Origin: Coriobacteriia bacterium
Lineage (GTDB): Bacteria; Actinomycetota; Coriobacteriia; Coriobacteriales; UBA8131
Direction: 5' to 3'
DNA length: 64,000 bases
Assembly: GCA_009783085.1 (NCBI GenBank)
Contig: WRHU01000001.1
Span: 1-64,000, forward strand
Shown here piece after piece: positions 26,663 to 48,305 of this stretch. The notes below the pieces were generated by a model, which was given only the letters and a program-made list of their open reading frames with translations, was not told the DNA's origin and did not search any database. A program made the translations under genes and the position numbers. Position 1 is the stretch's first letter. Each line of letters begins with the position of its first letter.

Positions 26663-27802
26663 TTAGTCTTTCAGATAATAAAAATCATCCGTTGGCAGCG
26701 CACCGCCTATGGAATCAGGGTTTTGGGCATACAAAACCTGCAAGTAACCCTCCAGTGCCTCTTTCATTTCTGTTCCTGTCAAACAAACAAGATTGCAGCG
26801 TGGTATTGCTTTTTCGGCGATGGCAGCGTTGTCAATTATCTGCATGGTTTCAACCAAGCGTCCACTGCGTGCCGGATTATTATTAACAGCTTCAACCGAT
26901 GCACGTTGGTGGGCGATAAACTCAGCAACCACCTCAGGGTGTGCTTCGGCAAACTCAGTACGAACCACCGTAACACCGGTAACCAAAAGGCTTTCGCCCG
27001 GAACAAACTCATTCCATGCCTCAGTTAAAGAAATGCGTGCGGCAAGGTTTGGATTTTTAGTAGTAACCGCCGTAACGTAGGGCTCGGGCAAAACAGCAAG
27101 AGCGGTGGGGTCAGAGCTGATAACAGCGGCAAGCTCGGTAGCCTCTGAGCGATACTCAAGATTGACATTCTTAGCACCACTGGCCTCAAGCAAGGCGTTC
27201 ATAACGTATTCCGGTGTAGTGCCTTTGCCAACCATCAAAACGGTGCGATTGCTCAAATCCTTAAGGCTCGTAAGAGAGTCATCGGCAGAAACTACATACA
27301 AAACTCCGAGGTTGTTAATGTTGAGAACCTGAACGCCACCTTTCGTTTTTTGGTGAAGCACAGCGGCAACATTGGCGGGAAGCACCGCAATGTCTATCTC
27401 GCCGGTGGTTAAGGCAGGCAAAATCTCATCGGCTGTTCCGTAGATGTTAAAGGCATAGCTATTTTTAGGCCCCTCAGGAAAGACTGGTTTTTCAGGGTTC
27501 TCAGGGTTTTCAGAGGCCTCGGCAGTATCCTCGTCTGGGAGATAAATCTGGCCAGCCTCCTCAAAAAAGTAAGCCAGTCCGATTGACGTCGGGCCTTTCA
27601 AAGAAGCAACTCGTACAACAATAGACTCCTCGCCCTCATTGTGGGGAAGCGTGTTGTTGCAACTGGTCAAAACGGCAGCACCGGCAAGGGTGGCAGTAAC
27701 GCAAATAGTCACAAGGGCAGAGAGTATAAACGACCTTGCGTGTTTTGGTAGCTGGATACGATTTTTAAGCTTTTGTAACGTGATGTGCGACTTACTCCTC
27801 AT
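26663..27802 (-). CDS. ABC substrate-binding lipoprotein, SsuA/NMT1-like
   Basis: Extracytoplasmic binding protein for the permease-ATPase fusion downstream. A basic N-terminus and hydrophobic stretch end in the lipobox VLTSC (Cys48), giving a lipid-anchored protein. TTGEIDIAVLPANVAAVL and GKGTTPEYVMNALLEASG are typical of the nitrate/sulfonate/thiamine-precursor group. A Pro/Glu-rich insert of about 25 residues (ASENPENPEKPVFPEGPK) interrupts domain 1. The frame is open up to 27880. I choose ATG 27802, which lies within the last codons of the hydrogenase gene with GGAG 8 nt upstream, so translation is coupled to the hydrogenase (11-bp overlap). Confidence 0.87.
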   Translation of the reverse strand: MRSKSHITLQKLKNRIQLPKHARSFILSALVTICVTATLAGAAVLTSCNNTLPHNEGEESIVVRVASLKGPTSIGLAYFFEEAGQIYLPDEDTAEASENPENPEKPVFPEGPKNSYAFNIYGTADEILPALTTGEIDIAVLPANVAAVLHQKTKGGVQVLNINNLGVLYVVSADDSLTSLKDLSNRTVLMVGKGTTPEYVMNALLEASGAKNVNLEYRSEATELAAVISSDPTALAVLPEPYVTAVTTKNPNLAARISLTEAWNEFVPGESLLVTGVTVVRTEFAEAHPEVVAEFIAHQRASVEAVNNNPARSGRLVETMQIIDNAAIAEKAIPRCNLVCLTGTEMKEALEGYLQVLYAQNPDSIGGALPTDDFYYLKD

Positions 27803-29627
27803 TGGGCATTCTCCATTCTTGATGATTGGTGTGCAAAAGATGATGTGATTTCTCGGAAAGTGGTTTTTCAAAGAACTCATCGTATACTTTGATTATTGCT
27901 GGATTCTCATGGGAGAAGCGGTAGGTATTATTGCTGTCTAGGTCGTAGAGGACCTTGCTGCGCTTGGCACGAATGCTCAAATCACTGCTGATAGGCTGTC
28001 CGCCGCCGCCAACACAACCGCCCGGGCATGCCATAATCTCAACAAAATCATAGGCGACTTCTCCGGCTTCGATGGCATCAAGCAGTTTTTCTGCATTACT
28101 GAGTCCAGAGGCAATGGCGATGCGCACTGAAGCTCCGTCAAGGTCAAAGGTAGCCTCTTTCCAGCTTTCTGGGCCACGTACCTCAGCAAAGGCATCGGGG
28201 TCGGGGTTAGAGCCCGTTACGTAGTAGTAGCCACTGCGCAACGCAGCCTCCATAACACCACCGGTTGCGCCAAATATCTCGCCCGCACCTGAGCCAATGC
28301 CAAGCGGCTCGTCAAAGTCCTCCTCGGCAAGGTTTTCAAAGTCAATAAAGTCCGAGCAAATAAGACGGTCAATTTCGCGCACCGTCAAGGCGATGTCAAC
28401 ATCTTGCCCGCTCCCAGCATCGTTCATGGTAGGCAAGGCGCACTCATGTTTTTTGGCAAGGCAGGGCATAACCGACATAGAAACAATGCGGCTGGGATCA
28501 ACTCCTAAAATCTCAGCGTAATAGCTTTTTGCCGTTGCGCCAAACATTTGCTGAGGCGATTTTGCCGTTGAGAGTCGGTCGACCATTTCGGGGCGGTGTG
28601 CCTTAATCCAACGCACCCACGCAGGGCAACAGGAGGTAAACATGGGCCAATTGTAGTCATCGGCGTGAGTAAAGCGCTCAACAAACTCGCTTGCCTCCTC
28701 GGTGATGGTCAAATCTGCCGAGAAGTCGGTATCAAAAATGTAGTCGATACCAATGGCGCGCAGCGCTGCAACCAAACGCTGGACGGTTGCTTTTTCGCGC
28801 GGAAGCCCCAAGGTTTCGCCCCATGAAGTACGCACAGAAGGAGCAATCTGGATAAGCGTAATTTTTTCGGGGTCGGCAATGGCATCTAAAACCTTGCTGA
28901 GGTCGTCACGTTCTTTGAGGGCGGCGGTAGGGCAGTGTGTTATGCATTGCCCGCAAACGGTGCATGAAGACTGCTCAATGGGCTGAGCATTTACTACGCC
29001 AACACCCGTGTGCGTGGCGCGGTTTTTTGCCGTCCAGATGTTAGAAGCCTGATTTTTGTCGCAAACTTGCAGGCATCGCCAGCAGGCAATGCACTTGCTT
29101 GCGTCACGAATAAGCGGGAAGTCTCGGTTCCAAACGGGTTTCTTTTCGGTCTTTTTGAAGCGAACCTCTGAGATGTTAAGGTTGTTTGCCAGTTCTCTGA
29201 GCTCGCAATTTCCTCCACGTAAGCAGCTGGTGCATTGAACATTGTGCTGGGAGAGCATAAGCTCAACATTAAGCTTGCGAGCCTTGCGCACCTTGGCAGT
29301 GTTGGTTTTGATAGCCATGCCCTCATACACCTTGTTGTTGCAGGCGGCAACCAGTTGTTCTGAACCCTCAACCTCAACGGAACAAACTCGGCAGGCACCG
29401 GCATCATTGAGACCCCAATAAAAGCACAGGGTAGGTATCTTGACACCAGCCATTGCTGCAGCCGCAAGAATGGTCATATCCTCAAAGGCTTCTATCTGTT
29501 TGCCGTTGATGCTTACATTGACACGCTTTTTGCCTGCGGTAGGCGTATTGGCTTGCCCGGCTTGCTGTTGTTCTGCTTGCTGTTCTGCCTGTTGCTCTGC
29601 TTGCTGCTGCGTTTCTTTTGCTACCAT
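27792..29627 (-). CDS. [FeFe] hydrogenase catalytic subunit
   Basis: Cytoplasmic hydrogenase of 611 residues. Modules in order: a Gln/Ala/Glu repeat tail (about 1-30); a [2Fe-2S] domain (CFYWGLNDAGACRVC); a His-Cys [4Fe-4S] site (HNVQCTSCLRGGNC); two [4Fe-4S] clusters (CIACWRCLQVC, CTVCGQCITHC); then the H-cluster domain. All three H-cluster motifs are intact: TSCCPAW (about 330), MPCLAKKHE (about 388) and EIMACPGGCVGGGGQP (about 533). It starts inside the last codons of the NuoF/GltD-like gene (7-bp overlap). The partner suggests NAD(P)H-linked H2 turnover, as in the glutamate-synthase-linked group A hydrogenases. Maturases HydE, HydF and HydG are not in the window. Confidence 0.95.
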   Translation of the reverse strand: MVAKETQQQAEQQAEQQAEQQQAGQANTPTAGKKRVNVSINGKQIEAFEDMTILAAAAMAGVKIPTLCFYWGLNDAGACRVCSVEVEGSEQLVAACNNKVYEGMAIKTNTAKVRKARKLNVELMLSQHNVQCTSCLRGGNCELRELANNLNISEVRFKKTEKKPVWNRDFPLIRDASKCIACWRCLQVCDKNQASNIWTAKNRATHTGVGVVNAQPIEQSSCTVCGQCITHCPTAALKERDDLSKVLDAIADPEKITLIQIAPSVRTSWGETLGLPREKATVQRLVAALRAIGIDYIFDTDFSADLTITEEASEFVERFTHADDYNWPMFTSCCPAWVRWIKAHRPEMVDRLSTAKSPQQMFGATAKSYYAEILGVDPSRIVSMSVMPCLAKKHECALPTMNDAGSGQDVDIALTVREIDRLICSDFIDFENLAEEDFDEPLGIGSGAGEIFGATGGVMEAALRSGYYYVTGSNPDPDAFAEVRGPESWKEATFDLDGASVRIAIASGLSNAEKLLDAIEAGEVAYDFVEIMACPGGCVGGGGQPISSDLSIRAKRSKVLYDLDSNNTYRFSHENPAIIKVYDEFFEKPLSEKSHHLLHTNHQEWRMPNEE

Positions 29628-31501
29628 GACGTGTGCCTCCCTCCACGCAAAGCGCCTAATCCAAAGTGGTCACAGCGCAAGCAGCGTGCGGCTTCCTGCG
29701 CTAGCTCATCGGGATAAAGCCCTTCCTCAACAAGTTCAAAATTGCCCGGCAGCTCCTCACCAAGCATCTCACGCATATTGGAACGTGCGCAGTGAACCCT
29801 GCCCTTAAAGAAGGGGGTGGGGATCTCAGGCTCAAAGCTAATGATATTTTCAAAGCCAAGGTAGGTGTCGATGGCGCGAGCTGCAACCTTGCCATCTGCA
29901 ACCGCACGAATAACCGTTGTGGGGCCAGCAGCACAGTCGCCGCCAGCAAAAACACCCGGCTTGTCGGGCAAGCTTGTGTCGCTGGTTGTTACGAGGCGTG
30001 CGCGATTGGTTGTAACGCCAGCTTTTTCAAAGGCAGCGGAGTCAATTTGTTGTCCAATGGCAACAAGGACAATGTCGCAGGCAAGAGTAATCTCATCTGT
30101 TTTGGCAGCCTGCGGAAGCGCGCGTCCGTTTTCAATGGTAGAAATCATTTGGGGTTGTAGGTTGATGCCACAAACAGCATCACCCTTTGTTTGAATACTT
30201 GCCGGAGCGTGGAGTTCAAGCAGCTCGCAGCCCTCAGCAATGGCAGCTTCTATTTCGGCAGCTTGAGCAGTCATATCTTGTTTGCGTCTGCGGTAGGCAA
30301 CCGTGACCTTGCCTGCACCAAGGCGGAGCGCCGTGCGAGCAACGTCCATAGCTACATTGCCACCACCAACCACCACGACGTTTTTGCCTGCGAAATCAGG
30401 TGCATCTGCATCGCCAATGCTGCGCAAAAGCCCAACAGCGGAGATAACACCCTGTGCCGTTTCTCCCTCAATGCCAAGCATTGCCGCAGCGTGTGCGCCA
30501 ATGCTCAGATAAACGGCATCATAATCTGAGCGCAGCTCGTCAAGACTGAGATCTTTTCCAACCGCAACTCCCGTTTTGACGTTTATGCCATGGGCGAGTA
30601 GGTAGTCAATCTCAGCGTCAAGAGCAGTGCGGGGGAGGCGATAGGCAGGAATGCCGTAGCGCAACATACCGCCGAGCTGCTCACGTTGTTCATAGACAAC
30701 AACCTTATGTCCCATGCAGGTGAGGTAAAACGCTGCCGTAAGCCCAGCGGGGCCTCCGCCAACAACAGCAATTTTTTTATTGGTGCTTTCCTCGTTTTGC
30801 GCAAAAAGCTGTAAGGGCTCGGTATTGGTCATGCCATTTTGGGCACGGTCGGCGGCAAAACGCTTAATGCCGCGAATGTTAATAGGGTCGTCAACCATGC
30901 CTCTGCGACACTGCAACTCGCAGGGGTGCTCGCAAATAAGCGCGCAGGCAACGGCAAAGGGATTATCTTTTCTCACCAACATAAGAGCGTCATCAAAACG
31001 CCCAGCAGAGGTAAGGGCAAGATAGCCGGGAACATCAACACCGGCGGGGCACCCCGACACGCAGGGCACCGGCGCAAAACGCTCTGCCATGCAATCGTTG
31101 TGTTCGATGTGATAGCAAAAGTCCTCGGCAAACGCCTTGGCAGCAGTATGGGCAACCGCAGCCCCCTCATAACCAATGGCGCAGTCTGCGGAGAGATAGA
31201 TGCTTTCCGCAAGTTCTGTAATAAGTTTGAGGCGGTTGTCGCACGCTGCAGCTGCACCGGTAGCTCCGGTGGCAATGGTTCCCTCCAAAACCTCGTCAAT
31301 AAGGGTTCCCAATTTTGCAAGACCAATGCGGCAAGGGACACATTTGCCGCAGCTTTGCGCAGCAGCCATCTTAACAAAGGCAGCAGTAAGCTCGATAGGG
31401 CAGGTGGTTTTTGCGCCTACTTGCTCACGTTCGCTCAGTTTTTGATAGATGTCCTCAATGCTTTTTTGTGCCGCACTTTTTTCGTACACGCTTAAGGGCA
31501 T
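29621..31501 (-). CDS. NuoF-type iron-sulfur / GltD-like NAD(P)H flavoprotein, hydrogenase partner
   Basis: 626-residue electron-transfer subunit. Residues 1 to about 145 match the C-terminal iron-sulfur part of NuoF/HydB (SCGKCVPCRIGLAKLG, then a later Cys in LSADCAIG). Next is a GltD/Fer4_20 domain with cysteines in CVSGCPAGVD and CEHPCELQCRRG. Two dinucleotide folds follow: VVGGGPAGLTAAFYL (FAD) and VVVVGGGNVAMDVART (NAD(P)H). AGGDCAAGPTTVIRAVADGK is the FAD-closing motif. The open frame reaches 31855 but the start is the ATG at 31501, preceded by AAGGAGG. It likely passes electrons between NAD(P)H and the overlapping hydrogenase. The NuoF flavin/NADH domain is absent. Confidence 0.88.
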   Translation of the reverse strand: MPLSVYEKSAAQKSIEDIYQKLSEREQVGAKTTCPIELTAAFVKMAAAQSCGKCVPCRIGLAKLGTLIDEVLEGTIATGATGAAAACDNRLKLITELAESIYLSADCAIGYEGAAVAHTAAKAFAEDFCYHIEHNDCMAERFAPVPCVSGCPAGVDVPGYLALTSAGRFDDALMLVRKDNPFAVACALICEHPCELQCRRGMVDDPINIRGIKRFAADRAQNGMTNTEPLQLFAQNEESTNKKIAVVGGGPAGLTAAFYLTCMGHKVVVYEQREQLGGMLRYGIPAYRLPRTALDAEIDYLLAHGINVKTGVAVGKDLSLDELRSDYDAVYLSIGAHAAAMLGIEGETAQGVISAVGLLRSIGDADAPDFAGKNVVVVGGGNVAMDVARTALRLGAGKVTVAYRRRKQDMTAQAAEIEAAIAEGCELLELHAPASIQTKGDAVCGINLQPQMISTIENGRALPQAAKTDEITLACDIVLVAIGQQIDSAAFEKAGVTTNRARLVTTSDTSLPDKPGVFAGGDCAAGPTTVIRAVADGKVAARAIDTYLGFENIISFEPEIPTPFFKGRVHCARSNMREMLGEELPGNFELVEEGLYPDELAQEAARCLRCDHFGLGALRGGRHTSW

Positions 31502-31565
31502 TTTTTCCTCCTTTTGCCAAAGCCGCTGAGGCTGGCGAAATGACCCATTGTAATTGCTGATTTGC

Positions 31566-31600
31566 TGATAGATCTCTATCAACGGTAACTTATCATTATA
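31566..31600 (-). promoter_or_regulatory. Promoter and palindromic operator of the hydrogenase run
   Basis: On the minus strand TATAAT lies at 31600-31595, with no clear -35. A perfect palindrome TGATAGATCTCTATCA (31566-31581) sits just past the predicted start of transcription, where a repressor could act. The leader to the ATG is about 85 nt. Confidence 0.5.
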
Positions 31601-31652
31601 CCTATTATGCGGGTGTTTCTGGTCTATACTCAGGGAAAAATACCATCCTCTT

Positions 31653-31745
31653 GTCCCGTTCGACGGGAGAGTGCTCGGGATAATTGTCCCGCTCGACGGG
31701 AGAGTGCTCGGGATATTTATCCCGTTTGACGGGAGAGTGCTGAGC
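31653..31745. repeat. Three 33-bp direct repeats with internal dyads
   Basis: Units begin at 31653, 31686 and 31719, exactly 33 bp apart. Each holds a 15-bp dyad, TCCCG-N5-CGGGA (31654-31668, 31687-31701, 31720-31734), followed by GAGTGCT. They lie between the divergent hydrogenase run and the nucleotidase gene. The 33-bp unit translates in frame in the long upstream frame, but the ribosome-binding site at 31501 makes the block non-coding. Confidence 0.9.
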
Positions 31746-31859
31746 CTAATTTTGACAAGTGTTGCAGGGGAGGCACCTTGCAAGCTCAGCAAAACGTTGA
31801 TAAGAGAACACATGATAGAATGATATTTGACGTTGTATTCTCGGTTTGGAGGCACTGTG

Positions 31860-33982: not shown

Positions 33983-35266
33983 TTATCTACCAAGATTGGG
34001 GTTCTTTGGAACTTTATTTGGTTTTTGCGCCTGACTACTTTTCTCTGCACTGTTAAGCCTATCGCCAAGTGAGCGAGATTGTTGTTTGATAGAAACTTGC
34101 GTCTTTTGTGGAGATTTTTGTGCCTCAATCATATTTACAAACTTATCTACTCTTGCGGCAAAGGCAGAAACAAGAAGTTCTTTTCGTTCGCTTGATATGC
34201 GCGAGGATTGAGATAGAGTTTCATCAAAAATCCGCTCTACTCCCTTTAGTTTTTCAAGATCAAAAGAATCAAAAGACGACACCAGCTCAAGTTGTTTTGA
34301 AGGTAACTCATGAAAAGGCTTTGTCTTAAAATCTGGCGTTAAAGAAATATCTTTCTCTAGCGAGTTGTACCAAAGACTTGATCCGCTATCAAATATCGGA
34401 GCTACTCCAACAAACTTAAGCGTATTCACATCTCGAATAACCCCAAAATTACCATAGTGCCTGTCTTCATTCATAATTAGGCTGTCAAAAGCAAGCATGG
34501 TATCAAGATGTTCTTTCATTCCGCTAATACCAAGAACACTACATTGATTTAATAGATGATCGTAATTTGAAATATGATTTGGCTTTTTAGCAGAAAGCAT
34601 TATTTGGTTGGCAGTTACAAGCTCCGTATCAGGAGTTATAAAGTTTTCACAAACACTATAAGGCTTATCGTCAATAACTAAAAAGCTGTAATTGACGTAT
34701 GAAACATTGTTGCAACGGGATAATATTTCTGAAGCAAAAACTTCATTAACAGGTTCTTGAACAAAAGGATCACTACCGCCTTTTATAAGGCAACGTTTCT
34801 CATCGATTATCTGCCATCGTTTTTTTAGCCACCCGTCTGAAGTATTATCTGGTGACATAAAGTTGATGTTTTCTTTATTGGCTACAGGTTTTCCAAAAAA
34901 AATATCACCAATATCATCAGAAAATGAATTATCAAAAAAGTTTACGTCTTTCCACTCAAGCTCTCCATTGGGGTTTATCCAATACTGATCCGAAAGAGAT
35001 AAGGCCATGCTTTTTACTAATAAACAATCAATATCAGATATATCGATTGCCTCTAAAGCATTGCGTAAGTCTTGACGACTTGCTGGAATTGCTCTGTTTT
35101 TGAACCATTTATTTAAGTCTTTACGCAAGCGATCCTTGTGTATTCCAACACCTATCGGAAGATACTCTGGATTTTCCATGTTATTTATACGAGAAATAAC
35201 ATTAGTGTCCGAGTCTATCACGCACGCTAGAATTGGTGTGTTTTTGTTCATTAGTGTGTAGTTCAT
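33983..35266 (-). CDS. HipA-like protein kinase, orphan
   Basis: 427 residues with a HipA-type kinase core: LDTMLAFDSLIMNEDRHYGN holds the catalytic Asp-Arg-His...Asn motif, and APIFDSGSSLW is the metal-binding (DFG-like) segment. The N-terminal 125 residues resemble the Gram-positive HipA-like proteins often annotated as excisionase. The Ser/Gln/Lys-rich C-terminus is disordered. Classical HipA phosphorylates GltX and pairs with a DNA-binding HipB; no HipB-like gene lies on either side. The gene is clearly richer in A+T than its neighbours and sits beside a tRNA pair, signs of horizontal acquisition. AAAGG lies 6 nt before the ATG. Confidence 0.78.
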   Translation of the reverse strand: MNYTLMNKNTPILACVIDSDTNVISRINNMENPEYLPIGVGIHKDRLRKDLNKWFKNRAIPASRQDLRNALEAIDISDIDCLLVKSMALSLSDQYWINPNGELEWKDVNFFDNSFSDDIGDIFFGKPVANKENINFMSPDNTSDGWLKKRWQIIDEKRCLIKGGSDPFVQEPVNEVFASEILSRCNNVSYVNYSFLVIDDKPYSVCENFITPDTELVTANQIMLSAKKPNHISNYDHLLNQCSVLGISGMKEHLDTMLAFDSLIMNEDRHYGNFGVIRDVNTLKFVGVAPIFDSGSSLWYNSLEKDISLTPDFKTKPFHELPSKQLELVSSFDSFDLEKLKGVERIFDETLSQSSRISSERKELLVSAFAARVDKFVNMIEAQKSPQKTQVSIKQQSRSLGDRLNSAEKSSQAQKPNKVPKNPNLGR

Positions 35267-36968: not shown

Positions 36969-38153
36969 ATGCAAGGTACACAACAAAGGCGCGGTCCGTA
37001 TAAGCCACGAGTGCTTATGGAAACTCCTGTTATCGACCGAGCTTTATCCCGCATAACTCACCAGATTCTAGAAACTAACAAAGGCCCAGAAAACATTGCG
37101 CTTATTGGCATTGTTACCCGCGGCGACATTCTCGCCCACGATATTGCGCTTCGCGTTTGGGAGATAACGGGCGTTAACGTGCCCGTAGGTACCCTCGATA
37201 TTAGCTTTTACCGCGACGATGTGGCATTTCGCATCGCACCGGAGATTCACACCACCAATATTCCTTTTTCCATGGACGGCAAAGCGGTGATACTCGTGGA
37301 CGATATTTTGTTTACGGGACGCACGGTGCGAGCCGCCCTTGATGCCATCATGGACTATGGCCGTCCGGCTGCCATTCAGCTTGCAGTTTTGGTCGATAGA
37401 GGGCACCGAGAACTGCCTATACGCGCCGACTACGTGGGCAAGAACATACCCTCGTCGCGCGAGGAGCAAGTACGTCTGTTTCTTGAGGAGGTAGATGGAC
37501 GAACCACCGTTGAAGTGTGGAAGCGTCTTGAAGGGGAACGTGCCAGTGCAGCACCGCTTGGCGACGTTCCGCGCAGCCCGATGCCCGCAGAGGCATCGTC
37601 AGCTGGAGGACTTTTTGGCGACGTTCACTTTGGTGGCGAGCATTTTATGGGCAAACACGCTGCTGGGTACACTGCTGGTAGCCCCACTACGGGCACGCCT
37701 CCGGTGGGCAATCCTGCAGCTGGTGAGTCATCGGTTGTAGAAATCCCTCCCGTCCAAGCTCCGCCGAGAACTACCGTGCTTGAGGACGTAGTGTTTGACG
37801 AGGCTCCAGAAAGCGAGATACCTCTGGGAGAAACCCCTTTAGGCGAAGCACCTCTTGAGGCAATACCTCTCGGCTCGGCGATTGTGGGGGCGTCACCAGT
37901 GCAGGTAGTGGTACAGCGTGGCTCTGCGAAAAGCGCACCAGTTGTTACTCCCTTTCCCGGGTTTTCAACAAGCGCGCGGGCTACCAAAACGCCAACCAAC
38001 CAAAAAACCGCTGTAAAAAATACCGACAAGAAATCTATAAACATATTTGCCGACGACCCTCCCGATGCCTCGTCTGAAGGCTCCCAAGAAACGCTTGAGC
38101 TCGATCTTGACGTACCCTCAGACGAACCCTCCTACGGAGGTGAGAGCCAGTGA
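36969..38153 (+). CDS. pyrR: PyrR regulator/uracil phosphoribosyltransferase with long C-terminal extension
   Basis: The N-terminal 180 residues are a standard Pyr[26 protein letters not shown], and the PRPP loop [20 protein letters not shown], then [20 protein letters not shown]. PyrR binds the pyr leader RNA when UMP is high and has weak UPRTase activity. Residues from about 185 to 394 are an added Pro/Gly/Ser/Glu-rich tail with short repeats ([34 protein letters not shown]). No other PyrR I know carries this; normal length is about 180. The tail has no membrane segment and ends acidic ([13 protein letters not shown]). The stop overlaps the pyrB GTG start. Confidence 0.93.
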
Positions 38154-39109
38154 GCAGTCTTTCCACCCAGCACGTTTTGGCTCTTCACGACTTAAACGTC
38201 AGCGACATTAACCTCATTTTGGATACCGCTCGTTCTTTTAAGGAAATCAACGAGCGCCCCATCAAAAAGCTTCCTACTTTGCGAGGACGCACCATTGTCA
38301 ATTTCTTTTTGGAGCCTTCGACGCGCACCCGAGTTTCTTTTGAAATCGCGGCAAAGCGGCTTTCTGCAGACGGCATAAACTTCAGTAGTTCGGGCAGCGC
38401 AACGAGCAAAGGTGAGTCGCTCATAGACACAGCAAAAACGCTCGACGCAATGAACTGCGACTTAGTAATTATTCGCCACAAATACGCGGGCTCGCCCTAT
38501 ATTCTTACGCAAAATATGCGCGCACCTGTTATCAACGGTGGCGACGGCAAGCATCAGCACCCAACGCAAGCCCTCCTCGATCTCTACACCATGCGCGAGC
38601 ATTTTGGCTCGATTGAAGGGCTTAAGGTGGGTATTGTGGGCGACATTGCGCACTCGCGGGTCTGTGGCTCGCTCATTGAGGGGCTTAGCATGCTCGGCGC
38701 CCAAGTTACGCTCATCGCTCCGCCAACGCTTCTGCCCGTTGCGCCTGAGGTACTGGGTTATCCTGGTGGCACACCAGTAACCTGCACGAGCGATTTGGAG
38801 TCAGTGCTGCCTGAGCTTGATGTGGCATATATGCTGCGCATTCAGCTTGAGCGCATCGAAAAGGCACCATTTCCGAGCTTGCGTGAGTACGCACGGCTCT
38901 TTGGCATTAACACCAAACGTATGGCGATGATGAAACCCGATGCCATTATCATGCACCCTGGACCAGTAAATAGGGGAGTTGAGCTTTCGAGCGAGGCGGT
39001 TGATACGGCAAAAAATCTCTTGCTCTATCAGGTTAATGCGGGAGTTGCTGTGCGCATGGCTTTGATGTATCTCTTATTGGGAGGCGATGCAGATGGCACG
39101 GTTTCCTAA
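38150..39109 (+). CDS. pyrB: Aspartate carbamoyltransferase catalytic subunit
   Basis: Joins carbamoyl phosphate and aspartate to N-carbamoylaspartate. The carbamoyl-phosphate loop is [13 protein letters not shown], followed by the [17 protein letters not shown] loop, [11 protein letters not shown] and the C-terminal [11 protein letters not shown]. At 319 residues it is a normal catalytic chain. No pyrI regulatory subunit is present, so activity is likely not allosteric in the enteric sense. The start is GTG in a 4-bp overlap with pyrR. A 68-bp spacer with a clean ribosome-binding site leads to pyrC. Confidence 0.97.
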
Positions 39110-39177
39110 TAAGCTGCCGCGCGAACTGCAACGCAAGACGGGTTTGTTGTTAGAAGTAGCACGGGGAGGAGATACAA

Positions 39178-40479
39178 ATGGCGCTGTTGCTTAAGGGTGG
39201 ACGACTGATAGACCCTGCCTGCAAACTTGATCGAGTGACAGATATTGTTATTCGAGATGGCAAAATAGTAGAGCTCGGTGCAAAAGGCAAAAAACTCTCC
39301 ATCCCCAAAGGTACTGAGATAGACTGCACGGGCTGCATTATTACTCCCGGCTTGGTTGATATGCATGTGCATCTGCGCGACCCGGGCTACGAATATAAAG
39401 AGGATTTGGCCTCAGGCGGTGCAGCTGCGGCAAAGGGCGGTTTTACAGCAGTGCTTGGTATGCCTAACACCAAGCCAATAATCGACACTGGTTCTCGCGT
39501 ACGGGCCGTCAATGAAAAAGCGCGCGAAGCAACACGCACCAAAATCCTCGTTTCTGGCTCACTTACCTCAGGCTTAAAAGGGGAGGCCCTCAGCGAGATG
39601 GGCGATATGCATGCTGCGGGCGCGGTTGCTTTTACCGACGATGGGCGCGGCGTGCAAGACAATAGCCTCATGCTTCGTGCGATGGAGTATGTCAAGCAGT
39701 TTGGGGCTCCCGTGCTTACTCACTGTCAAGATGAGGAGCTGGTGGCAGACGGCGTTGTCAATGAGGGTGCGGTTTCTACACGCCTTGGTTTAGCGGGCTG
39801 GCCTGCACTTGGCGAGGAGCTCGAAATTGCTCGCGACATTGCGCTGTGCGAGCTTACTGGCTGCCCGTTGCACATTCAGCACATCTCTACCAAACGTGGT
39901 GTTGAGTTGGTCGCAAGCGCAAAAGAAAAAGGACTTCCCGTTACCTGCGAGGTTACCCCTCACCATCTCTTTTTGAGTGAGGAAAATCTTGACGAAACCT
40001 ACAATACTAACTTCAAAATGAATCCACCTCTGCGCACCGAAGCCGATCGTAATTTTCTTGTTGATGCGCTTGTAAAGGGAACTATTGACTGCGTTGCCAC
40101 CGATCATGCCCCGCACGCTCGGCATGAAAAATCTCTTGAGTTTGAGCTTGCTCCCTTTGGTACTACTGGTCTTGAAACTGCTTTGAGCCTCATGGTCACT
40201 CACCTTGTTGACAAGGATTTACTTGACTGGGACGTTTTGGTTGAGCGCATGGCACATGCACCGCGCCGCATACTGGCACTTGAGGCCGCAAAGCTCAAAG
40301 TTGGCGCAACGGCGGATCTAACGGTCATTGACCCTGAGATTATCTGGACGGTTACACCCGATTGTTTTGAGTCTAAATCTAATAACTCTGCCTTTATTGG
40401 TGCTGAGCTTAAGGGCAGGGCGCGCCATGTTTTTGTTGATGGCTACGCAACGCTTGAGAACGGAAAGGTTGTTGCCTGA
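39178..40479 (+). CDS. pyrC: Dihydroorotase, class I
   Basis: Cyclises carbamoyl aspartate to dihydroorotate. The zinc site is DMHVHLRDPGYEYKED (HxH); further ligands are in LTHCQDE and HIQHIS, and the catalytic Asp is in ATDHAPHARHEK. At 433 residues it is the long bacterial type found in Bacillus and actinobacteria. GGGGAGGAG precedes the ATG. Its last codons (AACGGAAAGGTTGTTG) recur exactly in the spacer just before carA. Confidence 0.96.
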   Translation: MALLLKGGRLIDPACKLDRVTDIVIRDGKIVELGAKGKKLSIPKGTEIDCTGCIITPGLVDMHVHLRDPGYEYKEDLASGGAAAAKGGFTAVLGMPNTKPIIDTGSRVRAVNEKAREATRTKILVSGSLTSGLKGEALSEMGDMHAAGAVAFTDDGRGVQDNSLMLRAMEYVKQFGAPVLTHCQDEELVADGVVNEGAVSTRLGLAGWPALGEELEIARDIALCELTGCPLHIQHISTKRGVELVASAKEKGLPVTCEVTPHHLFLSEENLDETYNTNFKMNPPLRTEADRNFLVDALVKGTIDCVATDHAPHARHEKSLEFELAPFGTTGLETALSLMVTHLVDKDLLDWDVLVERMAHAPRRILALEAAKLKVGATADLTVIDPEIIWTVTPDCFESKSNNSAFIGAELKGRARHVFVDGYATLENGKVVA

Positions 40480-40549
40480 GGGCACGAAAAATGATGGCAA
40501 GAGAGGCCTAAAGCAAAAAGACGATAGAGAGAAAACGGAAAGGTTGTTG
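40459..40549 (+). repeat. 16-bp direct repeat around the pyrC stop
   Basis: AACGGAAAGGTTGTTG occurs at 40459-40474, in the end of pyrC, and again at 40534-40549, just before the carA start, 75 bp apart. The second copy provides the GGAAAGG ribosome-binding site of carA. Confidence 0.85.
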
Positions 40550-40553
40550 ATAG

Positions 40554-41804
40554 ATGAAAACGGAAAACACAACGGCGCAACATAAGGCACCTGCGCTGCT
40601 CATGCTTGAGGACGGAACCTGTTTTGAAGGTGTTTCTTGCGGAGCAACGGGTGAGGTCTTTGGAGAGGTCTGTTTTAACACCGCGGTTGTGGGGTATCTT
40701 GAGATTATCAGTGACCCAAGTTACACCGGGCAAATCCTGGTTATGACCTATCCGCAAATTGGAAACTACGGTGTTGCCCGAGCCGACCTTCAGTCTGAGA
40801 AGCTTGGCCTGCGGGGGCTGGTGGCACACGATATAAACGAAACACCCTCTAACTTTCGCTCAGAAATGAGTCTGCCAGAGTTTCTTGCAACAGAGGGCGT
40901 GGTTGCTATTTCACAGGTTGACACCCGTGCACTTACACAACATATTCGCGATAACGGTTCCTTGCGTGCGGTTATCTCAACTAGCGATTTAGACAGGGCT
41001 TCACTTTTGAAAAAGGTGCAGGCTTCTACCCCGCTTTCTGAGCAAAACGTAACGCAAGAAGTAAGCTGCAAAAGGGCGTTTGAATATCTTGATAAAAACG
41101 AAGCATACGATTTTATTTTGAAGCCCGCAGCGCCTGCGCAGCACAAAGTTGTTGTCTATGACTGTGGTGTTACAGCGAGTCTTTTGCGCAACGTGCAGCG
41201 TGCTGGCTGCGCGGTTACGGTGGCTCCGTGGAATACTCCTGCGCAAGATATTCTCACGGTTAAGCCAGACGGTGTTATTTTCTCAAATGGCCCCGGCAAC
41301 CCAGAGCAAGCTCAAGAAACCATTGCGGCAGCTGCGGAGCTGCTGGGAAAGATCCCCGTTTTGGGCGTTGGCTTTGGCATGCAAATTATGGCACTGGCAG
41401 CTGGAGCGGAGATAGAAAGGCTGAAGTTTGGCCATCACGGCTGCAATATCCCCGTTAAGAATCTCACTACGGGTTCTACCGAGATAACTACGCAACACCA
41501 CAACTTTGGTGTGGTGTTTGCAAGTCTTGGCACTGCTCTTGCACAAGAGGGAGCGGACGCAAAGGCCGCTTTAGACAACGCTTCAGGCAACGCTTTGGAC
41601 AACGACGCCCCCGTAGTCAAAAACGAACGCTTTGGGCCCATTGCCCTCACGCACACTAATCTCAACGACCAAACGCCCGAGGGCATCAGTTTCCTTGACA
41701 TACCAGCGTTTGGTGTTCAGCATCACCCCGACGAAGCATCGGGCTCAGATGAGAGCCATTACGTTTTCACCGACTTTATCAAGCTTATGGACGCCAAGAA
41801 CTAA
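40554..41804 (+). CDS. carA: Carbamoyl-phosphate synthase small subunit with inactivated glutaminase site
   Basis: The N-terminal CPSase small-chain domain is intact (EDGTCFEGVSCGATGEVFGE, FNTAVVGYLEIISDPSYTGQI). The C-terminal half aligns with class I amidotransferases: SNGPGNPEQAQ, FGHHGCNIPVKNL, ITTQHHNFGV. The nucleophile motif, GICLGHQ in E. coli, is here GVGFGMQ. Cys is replaced by Gly273 (codon 41370-41372) and His by Met. The His-Pro-Glu motif is HHPDEA (390-395), with Asp where the catalytic Glu belongs. Glutamine hydrolysis should be lost. With CarB the complex would use free ammonia, as human CPS1 does. At 416 residues the length is otherwise slightly above normal, with an Ala/Asn/Asp insert near 335. 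Confidence 0.92.
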   Translation: MKTENTTAQHKAPALLMLEDGTCFEGVSCGATGEVFGEVCFNTAVVGYLEIISDPSYTGQILVMTYPQIGNYGVARADLQSEKLGLRGLVAHDINETPSNFRSEMSLPEFLATEGVVAISQVDTRALTQHIRDNGSLRAVISTSDLDRASLLKKVQASTPLSEQNVTQEVSCKRAFEYLDKNEAYDFILKPAAPAQHKVVVYDCGVTASLLRNVQRAGCAVTVAPWNTPAQDILTVKPDGVIFSNGPGNPEQAQETIAAAAELLGKIPVLGVGFGMQIMALAAGAEIERLKFGHHGCNIPVKNLTTGSTEITTQHHNFGVVFASLGTALAQEGADAKAALDNASGNALDNDAPVVKNERFGPIALTHTNLNDQTPEGISFLDIPAFGVQHHPDEASGSDESHYVFTDFIKLMDAKN

Positions 41805-41885
41805 GAGAACGAGAGAAAGAACCAGCAAAACCAATACAACTATACAGAGCAACAACAGAGTAAATATTGAACAGGGAGGACAACC

Positions 41886-44800
41886 GTGCCGCGTAGAACA
41901 GACATAAACCGCGTACTTATCATAGGCTCAGGCCCCATTGTTATTGGGCAGGCGTGCGAGTTTGATTATTCAGGCGCGCAGGCGTGTAAGGTGCTTAAGG
42001 AGGACGGTTTTGAGGTTATCTTAGTCAACTCTAATCCTGCCACCATTATGACCGATCCTGCTATGGCAACCCGCACCTATGTTGAGCCTATAACCGTCGA
42101 TTCGCTGGAACGTATTATTGCCCGCGAACGCCCCGATGCTTTGCTCCCAACACTGGGTGGGCAAACGGGGCTTAATTGCGCCGTTGATTTGGCAAAGGCG
42201 GGAGTTTTAGAAAAATACAATGTTGAAGTCATTGGCTGCGATGTTGAGGCTATCGAGCGGGGAGAGGATCGCAAGCTCTTTGCTGAGGCCATGGCTGAGA
42301 TTGGGCTTGAGTGCGCAAAAAGCGGCTATGCTTATGGCATAGAGGATGCCGAGAAGCTCGCCGATGAAATGGGTTTTCCGTTAGTGTTGCGTCCTTCATT
42401 TACGCTCGGTGGTGCTGGTGGCGGCATTGCTCACAACATTAAAGAGTTGCGCGAAATTGTTGCGCAAGGACTTGACCTTTCTCCAGCAGGAGAGGTTTTG
42501 GTTGAGGAAAGCGTTCTTGGTTGGAAAGAAATTGAAATCGAGGCAATGCGCGATAAAAAAGGCAATGGCATTATTATCTGCTCGATTGAAAACTTTGATG
42601 CAATGGGCGTACATACGGGGGATTCCATTACGGTTGCTCCTGCTATGACGCTCAGTAAAATTGAGTATCAGCGGGTATGTACTGCTGCGCTCGACATTCT
42701 CAAAAAGGTTGGCGTGCAAAGCGGCGGCAGTAACGTGCAGTTTGCCATCAACCCCAAAGACGGACGTTTGATTGTTATTGAGATGAATCCGCGTGTATCG
42801 CGCTCGTCGGCTCTGGCCAGTAAAGCAACGGGATTTCCCATTGCCAAGTTTGCCGCCAAGCTTGCCGTGGGTTACACACTTGATGAGATGCCCAACGACA
42901 TGACGCGGGTTACTCCTGCTTGCTTTGAGCCCACCATTGACTACGTGGTGGTCAAGATTCCACGCTTTGCCTTTGAGAAGTTTAAGGGCACCGACACTAC
43001 GCTTACTACGCGCATGAAGGCGGTTGGCGAGGTTATGTCCATTGGGCGTACTTTTGAAGAGGCCTTGGGCAAAGCAGCGCGCTCGCTAGAAAATAATCGT
43101 GCGGGCATAGGCTTTGACGGCAAGGGCAACTTTGACGAGGAGCGCTTTGATGAACTTGTGGGCCTGCCCACCGAGGATAGACTTTTTTACATGGCTGAGG
43201 CTTTGCGCCGTGGCTGGAGCGTTGAAAAGGTTTCTGAGGCAAGCCAAATTGACCCGTGGTTTGTCAACCGCCTCAAAGCAATGGTTGATGAAACAGCGGC
43301 ACTTGAGGGCAAGAACCTTGAGGCTTTAAGCTACGATGAACTGTGGCGTGCCAAGACTTTTGGTGCAAGCGACATTCAAATTGCTCACCTTACCCAGACC
43401 ACTGAAGCGCAGGTGCGCACACGCCGTAAAGAGCTGGGGGTGGTACCTGCTTTTAAGCTGGTAGATACCTGTGCTGCAGAGTTTGCCAGCGATACAAGTT
43501 ATTACTACAAAACCTATGAAAAAACGGGCGACACCTTGCCCTCAGAAAAGCCAAAAGCTATGATTTTGGGCGCTGGTCCCAATCGCATTGGGCAGGGCAT
43601 AGAGTTTGATTACTGCTGCGTACACGCCTCGTACGCTTTGGCTGATATGGGTTATGAAACCATCATGGTCAACTGCAACCCCGAAACTGTTTCGACCGAC
43701 TATGACACCTCAGACCGCTTGTATTTTGAGCCCTTGACCTATGAGGACGTCATGGACATTGTAGATGCTGAGCAACCTGCTGGCGTGGTAGTAACGCTCG
43801 GTGGCCAAACTCCGCTCAAGCTTGCCAAGCCGCTTGAGGCGGCGGGTGTTCCTATAATGGGTACCAAGCCTGAGGCCATTGACCTTGCCGAGGACAGAGA
43901 GCGTTTTTCTCGTTTGCTTGACGAGCTGGGCATTGCCTATCCTGCTGCTGGTACAGCAGATTCCTTTGAGGAGGCCCTTGAGGTAGCAGACCGCTTGGGT
44001 TATCCCTTGCTGGTGCGCCCAAGTTATGTGTTGGGTGGGCGTGGCATGGTAATTGCCTATAACGCTGAGTATCTTGAGCGTTACATGAACGAGGCGACCC
44101 GTATTTCTCCCGACCATCCGGTCTATCTTGACAGCTTTTTAGAGGGTGCGGTTGAGCTTGATGTTGATGCCTTGTGTGACGGTAAAGAAGTGTATATTGG
44201 CGGACTGCTTGAGCATATTGAGGAGGCCGGTATTCACAGTGGAGATTCCTCGTGCTGTTTGCCGCCGTTCTCGCTTTCGCAAAGTATTATCGACCGCGTG
44301 CGCGAGCATACTGCCACGCTTGCTTTGGCAGTTGGCGTGCGGGGGCTTATTAACGTGCAGTTTGCGGTTAAGGACTCCGAAATTTATGTTATTGAGGTTA
44401 ATCCCCGAGCCTCTCGTACCGTGCCCTTTACGTCCAAGGCATCGGGTGTGCCTCTGGCAAAATGTGCCGCACGCATTATGGCGGGCGAAAGCATAGCGAG
44501 CCTCAACTTACCAAGCGATGCTCGCGAGCTGGGGCACTACAGCGTAAAAGAAGCGGTTATGCCCTTTGGGCGTTTTCCGGGTGCGGATATTTTGCTTGGC
44601 CCAGAAATGAAGTCTACGGGTGAGGTCATGGGCATTGGCGAGAGTTTTCCCATCGCCTATGCCAAAGCTGCTTTGTCAATTGACTATTCGCTGCCTTTGG
44701 GTGGGACGGTATTTATCTCGGTATGCGACCGCGACAAGCGCTCTATTGCTCCCATAGCGCACAGCCTGCACAACATTGGCTTTAAGATTGTGTCAACGGC

Positions 44801-45119
44801 GGGTACGGCTAGTACCTTGCGGGCGTCGGGTATTCCGGTTGAAGTGGTGCGCCGCGTGCAAGACGAGCAACCAAACATTGGCGACATGCTTGCCAATGGG
44901 GAAATAGACTTGGTGATAAATACGCCCTTTGGGCAAGAAACGCGCGGAGATGCCTATCGTATGAGAACCGCAGCGGTGCGCTACGGGATTTGCTATGCAA
45001 CTACTATCGCAGGCGCTGGTGCGCTGGTGCGCGCCATAGAAGTTGCCAAGCGTGATGCCGAGAGCAAGGATATTCTCGTGCCGCTGGCACTACAGGATTT
45101 GGAGCAGTGGAATGTGTGA
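41886..45119 (+). CDS. carB: Carbamoyl-phosphate synthase large subunit
   Basis: Makes carbamoyl phosphate from bicarbonate, ammonia and two ATP. It has two homologous ATP-grasp halves: [20 protein letters not shown] near the N-terminus and [20 protein letters not shown] in the second half, with NVQFAI and [22 protein letters not shown] at the ATP sites. The C-terminal MGS-like allosteric domain starts near residue 935 ([15 protein letters not shown]). At 1077 residues the length is normal. The start is GTG at 41886 after GGGAGGA. It appears fully functional, which makes the degenerate partner CarA striking. pyrK overlaps its end by 8 bp. Confidence 0.97.
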
Positions 45120-45951
45120 GGCTGTTGGCGCAAGGGAAAGCTTGAGTTGCCAAGCGGCTTCTGGTGTTTTGGAGCCTTGCGAGGTGCTTGATATAGGCTC
45201 TTGTGACAAAAACGGTGGTATCCGCAGGCTGGTTTTACGTGCGCCCCATGCGGCAATACACGCCCTGCCAGGGCAGTTTGTGCATTTACGTATCCCTCAC
45301 TTTGATGACCATCTTTTGAGACGGCCTTTTGGCTTGTATCGCTGCAATAGTGCTGCGGGCACCATAGAGCTGGTGTATCAGGTGCTTGGCGCAGGAACCC
45401 AGCAGATGACAAGCCTCAAAGTAGGGCAGAAGCTCGATATTATTGGCCCGGTGGGGCGTGGCTGGAGTTGTGCTCCTGAGGCGAAAAACGTTTTACTGAT
45501 TGCAGGTGGCATGGGGGCTGTTCCTCTGTATCCGCTTGCCGAGCAGCTTAAGGCACAGGGCAAACAGGTGCAGGTAGTTTTAGGCGCCCAGAATGCTGAC
45601 CTGCTCGTTTTCCAAAAAGACTTTGAAACCTTGCTCGGTGCAGAAAACATACCTATTTGTACCGATGACGGAAGTGCTGGGTTTCACGGTTTTACTACCG
45701 AGCGTGCTGCTGAGCTTTTGAAGAAAAGCAGTTTTGATGCCATTGCCACCTGTGGCCCACACCTCATGCAGCGTGGGGTTGCGTTGCTTGCGCGCAAAGC
45801 AGGCATACCCTGTGAAGTTTCGCTTGAGGAACGTATGGCGTGCGGCATTGGCGCTTGCCTGTCGTGTGTGGTTGAAACTACGGCAGGCAAAAAACGTGCT
45901 TGCGTGGACGGGCCGGTATTTAAGGCAGATGAGGTGATATGGAATGACTAA
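45112..45951 (+). CDS. pyrK: Dihydroorotate dehydrogenase electron-transfer subunit
   Basis: FAD and [2Fe-2S] protein that passes electrons from class 1B PyrD to NAD+. The FAD-binding RRPFGLY motif and [19 protein letters not shown] (NAD site) are clear. C-terminal cysteines [11 protein letters not shown] and a later RACVDGPVF bind the cluster. The frame is open from 45043, but ATG 45112 has GGAG 7 nt upstream and overlaps the carB stop by 8 bp, giving 279 residues. The stop overlaps pyrD by 8 bp. Confidence 0.94.
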
Positions 45952-46951
45952 GGCTCTCGACAAAAACTCTGGTGCCTCTGCTGTGAATCTTGCTGTCAAC
46001 GTAGGCGGCTTGTCCATGAAAAACCCCGTTACGGTTGCCTCGGGTACCTTTGCCTCGGGGCGCGAGTATGCCGAACTTTGGCAGGCAAGTGTTGGGGCTT
46101 CAAGCGAGCCTTCAAAAAACGTAAACCCTGCCACAGAGCTTGAGGCGCTCGGCGCACTGACCACCAAGGGTGTTTCCTTTGAGCCGTGGACAGGCAACGC
46201 CACCCCGCGCATTGCCGAAACACCAAGCGGCATGCTTAATGCAATAGGCTTGCAAAACAAGGGAGTTGAGGCCTTTTGTCAAGACGACTTAACATGGCTT
46301 GCCAAAAATGCTCCCGAGCTTCCGCTTGTGGTAAATGTGTGTGGACATACGGTTGACGAGTTTGCTCCCGTTATAGAGCGTCTTGAGCAAGAAACTGTGG
46401 TTGATGCCTATGAGATAAATATTTCCTGTCCTAATCTTGATTGTGGCGGCATGGCATTGGGCGTTGACCCAGAAGTTGCCGCAGCGGTAACACGCACGTG
46501 TAGAGCTGCTACCAAGCGACCACTTATCGTAAAGTTGACCCCTAACGTAACTGACATTACCGAGATTGCCAAAAGTGTTGAGGCTGCCGGTGCCGGCGCA
46601 CTCTCGCTCATCAACACGGTTGCGGGTATGGCCATCGACGCCAAATTGCGCAAGCCTTTGCTTGCTCGTGGCTCGGGTGGTCTTTCTGGTCCTGCTATAA
46701 AGCCGGTTGCCCTGCTTGCCGTGCATCGTTGCTATCAAGCGGTTTCTGTACCGCTTATAGGCATGGGAGGCATACGTAATGCCACCGATGCCATTGAGTT
46801 TATGCTTGCGGGTGCTACTGCTGTTGCGGTGGGCACGGCTAACTTTGCCGACCCTCTTGTTGCCCTGCGCCTTGCAGACGAGATGCAACTTTGGTGCGAG
46901 AGCCAAGGCGTAGAGGATATCAACGAGCTGATTGGAGGGCTTTTAGCATGA
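45944..46951 (+). CDS. pyrD: Dihydroorotate dehydrogenase, class 1B catalytic subunit
   Basis: FMN enzyme that oxidises dihydroorotate to orotate, paired with PyrK and NAD+. MKNPVTVASGTF opens the barrel, LTTKGVSFEPWTGN and GLQNKGVE bind substrate, and EINISCPNLDCGG holds the active-site Cys region of class 1 enzymes. KLTPNVTDI and GMGGIRNATDAIEFMLAGA (phosphate site) complete it. At 335 residues it is about 30 longer than usual, through an insert after REYAELW that is rich in Ser/Asn/Pro. It is coupled to pyrK and pyrF by overlaps. Confidence 0.95.
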   Translation: MTKALDKNSGASAVNLAVNVGGLSMKNPVTVASGTFASGREYAELWQASVGASSEPSKNVNPATELEALGALTTKGVSFEPWTGNATPRIAETPSGMLNAIGLQNKGVEAFCQDDLTWLAKNAPELPLVVNVCGHTVDEFAPVIERLEQETVVDAYEINISCPNLDCGGMALGVDPEVAAAVTRTCRAATKRPLIVKLTPNVTDITEIAKSVEAAGAGALSLINTVAGMAIDAKLRKPLLARGSGGLSGPAIKPVALLAVHRCYQAVSVPLIGMGGIRNATDAIEFMLAGATAVAVGTANFADPLVALRLADEMQLWCESQGVEDINELIGGLLA

Positions 46952-47718
46952 GCAGCAGAGAGAAAATGCCAACTGACTACAAGGCACTTGAGCCCGCCGA
47001 GCGCATTATTGTGGCGCTTGATTGCGGCAGGGAGCAAGCACACGCACTTGCCGCCCAGCTCGAAGGAGAGGTTGGCTGGCTTAAGGTGGGTATGACCTTG
47101 TTCTACCGAGAAGGTCCTCAAATTGTGCAGCTTTTTAAGGAGCGAGGTTTTAAGGTTTTTGTCGACCTCAAGCTTCATGATATTCCGCATCAAATACAGG
47201 GTGCGGCGCAAAGCGTGGTGGAATGTGGTGCAGATATGTTTAGCATTCACGCAAGCGGTGGTGCTGCCATGATGGAGGCGGCGTGTGCTGGTGGAGAGGC
47301 TGGTTACGCAGCATTACCGCCTGAGCAAAAAGGCGACAAGCCGCTCTCCGTAGGCATTACGGTACTTACCTCTACGGACGCAAATACCCTTGCTTCTATT
47401 GGTGTTGAGCAAAGCACGCAAGACCAAGTAAAACGCCTTGCCTTGCTGGCGCAAAACGCTGGGCTTTCGGGCGTGGTTGCTTCTCCGCAGGAGGCAGCTA
47501 TGCTCAGAGAAGTGTTGGGGCCAGAAGCACTTATTGTTACCCCAGGGGTTCGACCCGCTGGTGCCGAGCTGGGCGATCAACACAGAGTTGCAACTCCAGC
47601 AGCTGCCTTGGCGGCGGGTGCTAGTCATTTGGTTATTGGGCGTCCCATAACTGAGGCAGAAAACCCCAGCGAGGCACTTCATAAAATTATTTCTGAGATA
47701 AAGGAAGGCACATTATGA
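46948..47718 (+). CDS. pyrF: Orotidine 5'-phosphate decarboxylase
   Basis: Last step to UMP. The catalytic Asp-Lys-Asp array is in FVDLKLHDIPHQ; the phosphate loop includes TPGVRPAGAELGDQHRV and GASHLVIGRPI. At 256 residues it is normal for the type 1 family. The frame is open from 46891, but ATG 46948 overlaps the pyrD stop (ATGA) and GGAGGG lies 8 nt upstream. It is coupled to pyrE by another ATGA. Confidence 0.95.
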   Translation: MSSREKMPTDYKALEPAERIIVALDCGREQAHALAAQLEGEVGWLKVGMTLFYREGPQIVQLFKERGFKVFVDLKLHDIPHQIQGAAQSVVECGADMFSIHASGGAAMMEAACAGGEAGYAALPPEQKGDKPLSVGITVLTSTDANTLASIGVEQSTQDQVKRLALLAQNAGLSGVVASPQEAAMLREVLGPEALIVTPGVRPAGAELGDQHRVATPAAALAAGASHLVIGRPITEAENPSEALHKIISEIKEGTL

Positions 47719-48305
47719 GAATGGACGATGCAGCGGTTTTGACAGCACTTGAGCAAACCCAAGCAGTGCGCAAGGGACACTTCCAGCTCACCAGCGGGCG
47801 GCACTCAGATACCTATATCCAATGCGCGCGCGTGCTCGAACACCCCCGACTTACCAATCAACTGGCGGCAGAAACGGTTGCTCGCTTGCTTGAGGAAACT
47901 CAGAACACCAACATCGACCTCGTTATTTCTCCTGCCATCGGCGGCATACTTTTTGGTTTTGCGGTTGCCACGGCACTCGACAAACCTTTCTTGTTCACGG
48001 AGCGCAAAGAGGGCGTTATGCAGCTGCGCCGTTCTTTTGAAATACCGCCCACCGCTCAGGTGCTGGTTGCTGAGGACGTGGTTACTACGGGCGGCTCGGT
48101 CAAAGAGGTTTGCGACCTTGTTGAAGCGGCAGAGGCTACCGTGGTGGCAGTCGTTTCGCTCATAGACCGCGGGGGAGTGCCGGTATTCCAAGCACCCTTT
48201 TATCCGCTTTTGCGTTTTGAAACCCCCTCATGGGCTCCCGAGGACTGCAAATTATGTAAGCAAGGTATGCAAATGGACGCTCCGGGAAGCCGTAAAAGTA
48301 GCTAG
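47715..48305 (+). CDS. pyrE: Orotate phosphoribosyltransferase (3' end exchanged by an insertion)
   Basis: Attaches PRPP to orotate, the fifth step to UMP. The PRPP loop is VLVAEDVVTTGGSVKEV, and ISPAIGGILFGFAVA is the orotate region. The C-terminus has the Cys-containing tail CKLCKQG then APGSR common in this OPRTase group. 196 residues. The last 36 codons (48186-48292) are repeated perfectly at 50627-50733. After the repeat this copy ends RKSS-stop, while the downstream copy would end RLSVK-stop. The island therefore replaced the final residues without breaking the gene. Confidence 0.95.
   Translation: MRMDDAAVLTALEQTQAVRKGHFQLTSGRHSDTYIQCARVLEHPRLTNQLAAETVARLLEETQNTNIDLVISPAIGGILFGFAVATALDKPFLFTERKEGVMQLRRSFEIPPTAQVLVAEDVVTTGGSVKEVCDLVEAAEATVVAVVSLIDRGGVPVFQAPFYPLLRFETPSWAPEDCKLCKQGMQMDAPGSRKSS
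48186..48292 (+). repeat. 107-bp direct repeat, left copy (inside pyrE)
   Basis: Identical over 107 bp to 50627-50733, offset 2441 bp. Both flanks diverge at once (A versus T before, T versus C after). It covers the codons for the pyrE C-terminus. Confidence 0.97.

Follow-up and report, generated by a model that had tools for sequence, protein, structure and literature searches.

The carA and carB genes of the pyrimidine operon in the window (the whole stretch of 64,000 nucleotides analyzed here) very probably encode a carbamoyl phosphate synthetase (CPSase) that depends on ammonia, in which CarA would serve as a structural subunit with a dead glutaminase, as part of a lineage-specific shift from glutamine to ammonia as nitrogen donor. 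We assign this reading, which is built on comparative sequence analysis, a probability of roughly 0.86. An earlier, sequence-only reading of the same DNA had already proposed the loss of the nucleophile, ammonia as donor and a structural CarA, and these proposals are now supported by repeated losses among relatives, deletion of carA, relaxation of the glutaminase half, co-variation of Arg265 in CarB and loss of the ammonium transporter Amt, from which we infer the use of ammonia.

The operon (order pyrR-B-C-carA-carB-pyrK-D-F-E, 36969-48305) is complete and contiguous on a 257-kb contig of a 1.58-Mb genome, assembled in 19 contigs and 91% complete (Table 1). The carA and carB genes are separate, with a gap of about 80 bases, and the reading frame of carA is open along its 416 aa. 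CarA scores 399.4 bits against the whole-protein model TIGR01368 (cut-off 307.35) and harbors domains PF00988 and PF00117, which makes it a small subunit; the curated name of that model is glutamine-hydrolysing, despite Gly273 in this protein. CarB belongs to TIGR01369, with two ATP-grasp synthetase units followed by oligomerisation and MGS domains. No second carA was found in the assembly (91% complete), as the sequence-only reading required, nor any candidate for a substitute free-standing class I glutaminase in this genome. The PyrR of the operon is 394 aa long, with a phosphoribosyltransferase domain that stops near residue 161, after which come about 190 repetitive Pro/Gly-rich residues without counterpart in the relatives' matches.

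Table 1. Coordinates of the pyr operon genes and of the CarA and CarB features discussed in the text (window positions).
Feature	Positions	Strand	Remarks
pyrR	36969..38153	+	PF00156; tblastn synteny
pyrB	38150..39109	+	homology and synteny across family operons
pyrC, immediately upstream of carA	39178..40479	+	synteny; abuts carB in G019 and G020
carA, CPSase small subunit, predicted glutaminase-dead	40554..41804	+	416 aa; TIGR01368, PF00988 and PF00117
Conserved N-terminal domain of CarA (CPSase_sm_chain; residues ~14-189)	40593..41120	+	0/35 near-invariant positions changed
Nucleophile elbow GVGFGMQ instead of GICLGHQ	41364..41384	+	Gly273 = codon 41370-41372
His motif and tunnel loop QHHPDEASGSD	41718..41750	+	His391, Asp393, Ser398 (41745), Asp399 (41748)
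carB, CPSase large subunit	41886..45119	+	1077 aa, GTG start; NF003671 1624 bits; catalytic domains complete
CarB Cys265 (TGT)	42678..42680	+	Arg265 in every Cys-linked CarB examined
pyrK, pyrD, pyrF, pyrE, remainder of operon	45043..48305	+	operon context

The replacement of the catalytic Cys by Gly273 was borne out: the elbow reads GGC GTT GGC TTT GGC ATG CAA (G-V-G-F-G-M-Q), and its gap-free alignment to GICLGHQ of E. coli sets Gly273, encoded by the third of these codons, on Cys269. In the His motif (Q-H-H-P-D-E-A) the catalytic His is retained (His391, corresponding to E. coli His353) and Asp393 aligns with Glu355, as had been read from the sequence; the accompanying statement that the Glu is lost is the softer half of that observation, because Glu394 directly adjoins Asp393. 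The Cys-His-Glu triad of type II (glutamine-hydrolysing) CPSases is thus reduced to its His, with Gly in place of Cys and Asp in place of Glu. In the tunnel loop, Pro360 and His361 (E. coli numbering) have become Ser398 and Asp399, and the NGPG of the oxyanion loop is retained.

These changes are concentrated in the glutaminase domain. Among near-invariant positions defined from 96 Cys-bearing CarAs, 12 of 60 in this domain are changed in the CarA of the window (Gly273 and 11 others, glutamine-pocket and tunnel positions among them) and none of 35 in the N-terminal domain, compared with 0-5 and 0-3 changes, respectively, in 16 Cys-bearing CarAs of the family. Of the two halves of CarA, conservation is usually higher in the glutaminase half (C-terminal minus N-terminal identity +0.04 to +0.14); in Cys-less genomes that half is equally or less conserved (-0.10 to 0.00), a reversal of the usual relation. 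Purifying selection nevertheless persists, with the Cys-less CarAs of the g16 genomes keeping open frames and a dN of about 0.36-0.40 versus a dS at or near saturation. Judging from the reversed conservation of the halves together with this persisting selection, what is maintained in the glutaminase domain of Cys-less CarA is the fold and not the enzymatic activity. An AlphaFold model of the protein predicts the fold confidently (pLDDT 88.8), with the ends, residues 396-399 (pLDDT < 50) and a stretch at about 332-350 as its weak parts; its best PDB match is E. coli CarA (1cs0), followed by human CPS1. The stretch at residues 332-350 (41547-41603), within the glutaminase domain, is rich in Ala, Asn and Asp.

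To place this loss within the class, a motif pattern was searched across 400 Coriobacteriia genomes, a sample that omits several less complete Cys-less family members. The CarA elbow was found in at least 328 of them, and, among the matches listed, a non-Cys elbow in a real CarA was found only in the genome of the window, with a pattern blind to non-Cys codons that start with T, such as the TCN codons of Ser. Five further non-Cys matches were chance hits and not CarA. Within the family, where 33 genomes, most of the relatives being incomplete MAGs, were searched for CarA, Gly replaces Cys in G024, G025, G026, G027, G031 and G017; G027 and L033 (Coriobacteriales bacterium Spi319_bin26), a public record, carry one and the same carA. 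Two other genomes, G019 and G020, gave no CarA matches and carry a full carB; in both, pyrC is followed within a few bases by carB at the place where relatives have carA, in an otherwise intact operon. On the CarB tree four state changes are needed (the window's genome; G031 with g16; G017; G019 with G020), and a common origin for the losses of Cys or carA was rejected (AU test; p-value: 1e-4). The assembly of G017 is poor, with frame breaks in both carA and carB, so that three origins are firm and a fourth likely: Cys loss or carA deletion arose at least three times, and probably four, within the family. The alignment of CarA from related Coriobacteriia suggested as a check thus turned out in favor of the initial observation, with the Cys lost repeatedly and independently.

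The large subunit has co-varied with these losses. The expectation of an open carA frame and an intact CarB held in that the frame is open and CarB is of full length, but not in that CarB is wholly unchanged: it keeps 340 of 342 positions invariant among 22 CarBs of Cys genomes, the two changes being Arg265 to Cys and Thr279 to Ser. Arg265 is substituted in eight of nine glutaminase-less genomes, covering all three firm lineages (Cys in the window's genome and G031; Ala, Thr, Val and Val in g16; Val in G019; Tyr in G020), with G017 as the exception, which retains Arg265 despite its Cys-less CarA. It is Arg in all 15 Cys genomes of the family with data, in E. coli, and in 46 of 46 distant CarBs adjoining a Cys-bearing CarA, the sole exception in the distant set being the Cys-less L033; it is also changed, to Cys, in G028, a genome outside the Cys and glutaminase-less counts. 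Three further replacements (P345Q, A346E and T540K), at positions invariant in Cys genomes, are common to the CarBs of G019, G020 and G023, the contig of the last ending before the place of carA, and A253Q is found in G019 and G020. These replacements fit a release of the subunit interface, at which the sites would lie.

Arg265 of CarB and Pro360 and His361 of CarA, presumably the same sites as those mutated in E. coli laboratory work, are taken here to line the wall of the ammonia tunnel. The E. coli triple alanine mutant of Kim and Raushel (2004) reportedly leaks ammonia and cannot use glutamine, yet works with NH3. Blocking or perforating the tunnel leaves E. coli variants active with external ammonia (PMC4655335).

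Other amidotransferases of the family show parallel changes. The GuaA of the window's genome (G000:C2:90450-91739; L116, L210) has 442 aa, lacks the nucleophile and retains a degenerate first part of the glutaminase domain of about 110 aa, and in nine other genomes of the family GuaA lacks this domain altogether. In the GuaA tree the window genome's protein is basal to the glutaminase-free clade and that of G020 falls inside the full-length clade, so that there were at least two separate losses of the domain in the family. G018 has both kinds, full-length and glutaminase-free (L208, L168), which suggests replacement by transfer within the family. One of the two AsnBs of the window's genome (G000:C8:58830-59228; L234) starts with MSGF and not MCG, with Ser at the class II nucleophile Cys1, and the other (L221) keeps Cys1; a Met-Ser-Gly start is also found in G032, G024, G027, G031 and one AsnB of G017, and Leu-Ser-Gly in G025. 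The PyrG of G019 (L172, G019:C43), where carA is also deleted, reads GIGLGLQ, with Gly for Cys. On the other hand, the window's genome retains the Cys of PurF, PurQ, PyrG and GlmS and encodes a glutamine synthetase of the GSIII type, implying that glutamine would still be used elsewhere.

Our guess, set beforehand and then tested, was that plentiful ammonia would render the scavenger Amt dispensable. None of the nine glutaminase-less genomes has Amt, compared with 14 of the 17 Cys genomes (Fisher test; p-value: 7e-5, uncorrected for kinship and inflated by shared ancestry), and phylogenetically independent pairs all point in the same direction, being too few for significance. The Cys genomes without Amt are G010 (61% complete), G022 (72%) and G030; the last, which sits next to the G031-g16 clade and whose GuaA is already of the short form, looks like an intermediate. 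We consider it fairly likely that the family as a whole is shifting its nitrogen-donor economy to ammonia, through repeated losses of the CarA nucleophile and of CarB Arg265, then deletion of carA to leave a stand-alone ammonia-using CarB, together with the losses of GuaA, AsnB and PyrG glutaminases and of Amt. An unlikely, though serious, alternative accepts an ammonia-dependent CarAB and ascribes the Amt, GuaA and AsnB changes to coincidental genome erosion instead of one donor shift. The window's genome is indeed small and the independent contrasts behind the Fisher test are few; against erosion, however, the losses strike glutaminase parts while synthetase parts are kept, the GuaA glutaminase was lost separately in G020, and the Amt pattern had been guessed in advance.

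If CarAB were instead decaying, with carbamoyl phosphate or pyrimidines supplied by the arginine deiminase pathway or by salvage, the loss of Cys would be an early step of pseudogenisation. The relaxed selection on the glutaminase domain and the deletion of carA in two relatives would agree with this, but the near-complete conservation of invariant residues in CarB, the complete de novo pyr gene set around it, the constrained open frames of the g16 CarAs and the persistence of carB and the other operon genes where carA is gone make decay highly improbable. Less probable still is that CarA hydrolyses glutamine through another nucleophile, or that a different glutaminase feeds CarB: His391, NGPG and the predicted fold are kept, yet glutamine-pocket and tunnel residues are changed as well, the genome holds no spare class I GATase, Arg265 is lost in step with Cys, and two relatives manage without CarA. 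An error of sequencing, assembly or binning, conceivable for an assembly in 19 contigs with MAGs as relatives, has a negligible chance, since the same loss recurs in L033 and in several genomes that were assembled independently, the operon is contiguous, and several linked residues are changed, a point already argued from the joint change of the motif residues.

In an ammonia-dependent CarAB, CarA would be unable to hydrolyse glutamine, with its nucleophile gone and its glutamine-pocket and tunnel-loop residues altered, and cytosolic NH3 would reach the bicarbonate-phosphorylating site of CarB directly, along a path probably unsealed at the CarA-CarB interface by the loss of Arg265. The catalytic halves of CarB would work normally. 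CarA would be retained for stability because the N-terminal domain continues to bind CarB, and sister lineages would later have deleted it. CarA, GuaA, one AsnB and a relative's PyrG would have shifted together from glutamine to free ammonia, with the Amt scavenger no longer needed. The E. coli enzyme uses free ammonia only when ammonia is high (PMC6245113), so the present enzyme would need either abundant NH3 in the cytosol or a lower Km. We infer that NH3 is used in vivo, that its path is open and that the habitat is rich in ammonia.

The principle of an ammonia-using CPSase is already known from vertebrate CPS1, and the bacterial case would be new. In human CPS1, Ser294 replaces the nucleophile Cys, ammonia is the substrate and the ancestral tunnel is altered (PMC4655335). 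As in CPS1, the glutaminase domain of the window's enzyme is kept as a fold and predicted to be inactive through nucleophile loss. CPS1, however, is a single fused polypeptide, mitochondrial, activated by N-acetylglutamate and devoted to detoxification in the urea cycle, whereas the enzyme described here has two subunits encoded in a bacterial pyrimidine operon, carries Gly and not Ser at the Cys position, has CarB Arg265 altered and has lost a subunit in relatives. E. coli CarAB shares its fold and subunits, and the natural substitutions lie at or beside sites altered in engineered E. coli enzymes (C269S, structure 1c30; G359F, 1m6v; tunnel perforation), which are Cys269 and, presumably, Pro360 and His361 of CarA and Arg265 of CarB; unlike the engineered changes, they are fixed in several lineages and CarB has co-evolved with them. 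A synthetase without glutaminase that uses free ammonia in vivo, as proposed here, is known in single-domain NadE (PMC3376133), whose ammonia form is thought ancestral, whereas this family would have lost glutamine use.

A survey of about 600-800 genomes for each gene (PMC3376133, Table 1) lists no glutaminase-less carAB, guaA, asnB or pyrG, and a 2018 review (PMC6245113) gives glutamine as the physiological donor for the E. coli enzyme; on sequence grounds, the family contradicts the general statements of both. A search of the literature, mostly open-access papers, returned no report of a bacterial ammonia-only CarAB or of carB without carA. The graded natural series, from intact CarA through nucleophile loss to subunit deletion, mirrors how the urea-cycle enzyme of vertebrates arose and offers a test of how a channelled amidotransferase may be rewired for free ammonia and whether a single CarB residue gates the switch. 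The family also points to an ammonia-rich habitat that may be readable from genomes.

Elsewhere in the window, the frame at 33986-35266 (minus strand; 427 aa) gave no Pfam match at E 1e-4. A single frame (25184-26608, minus strand) joins ABC transporter permease and ATPase domains (PF00528 and PF00005) and adjoins a gene for an NMT1-like binding protein (26666-27880). Finally, 27795-31855 (minus strand) encodes an [FeFe] hydrogenase large subunit whose N-terminus resembles NuoG and, next to it, a flavoprotein that combines NuoF and GltD-like domains; this hydrogenase is perhaps NAD-linked or bifurcating.
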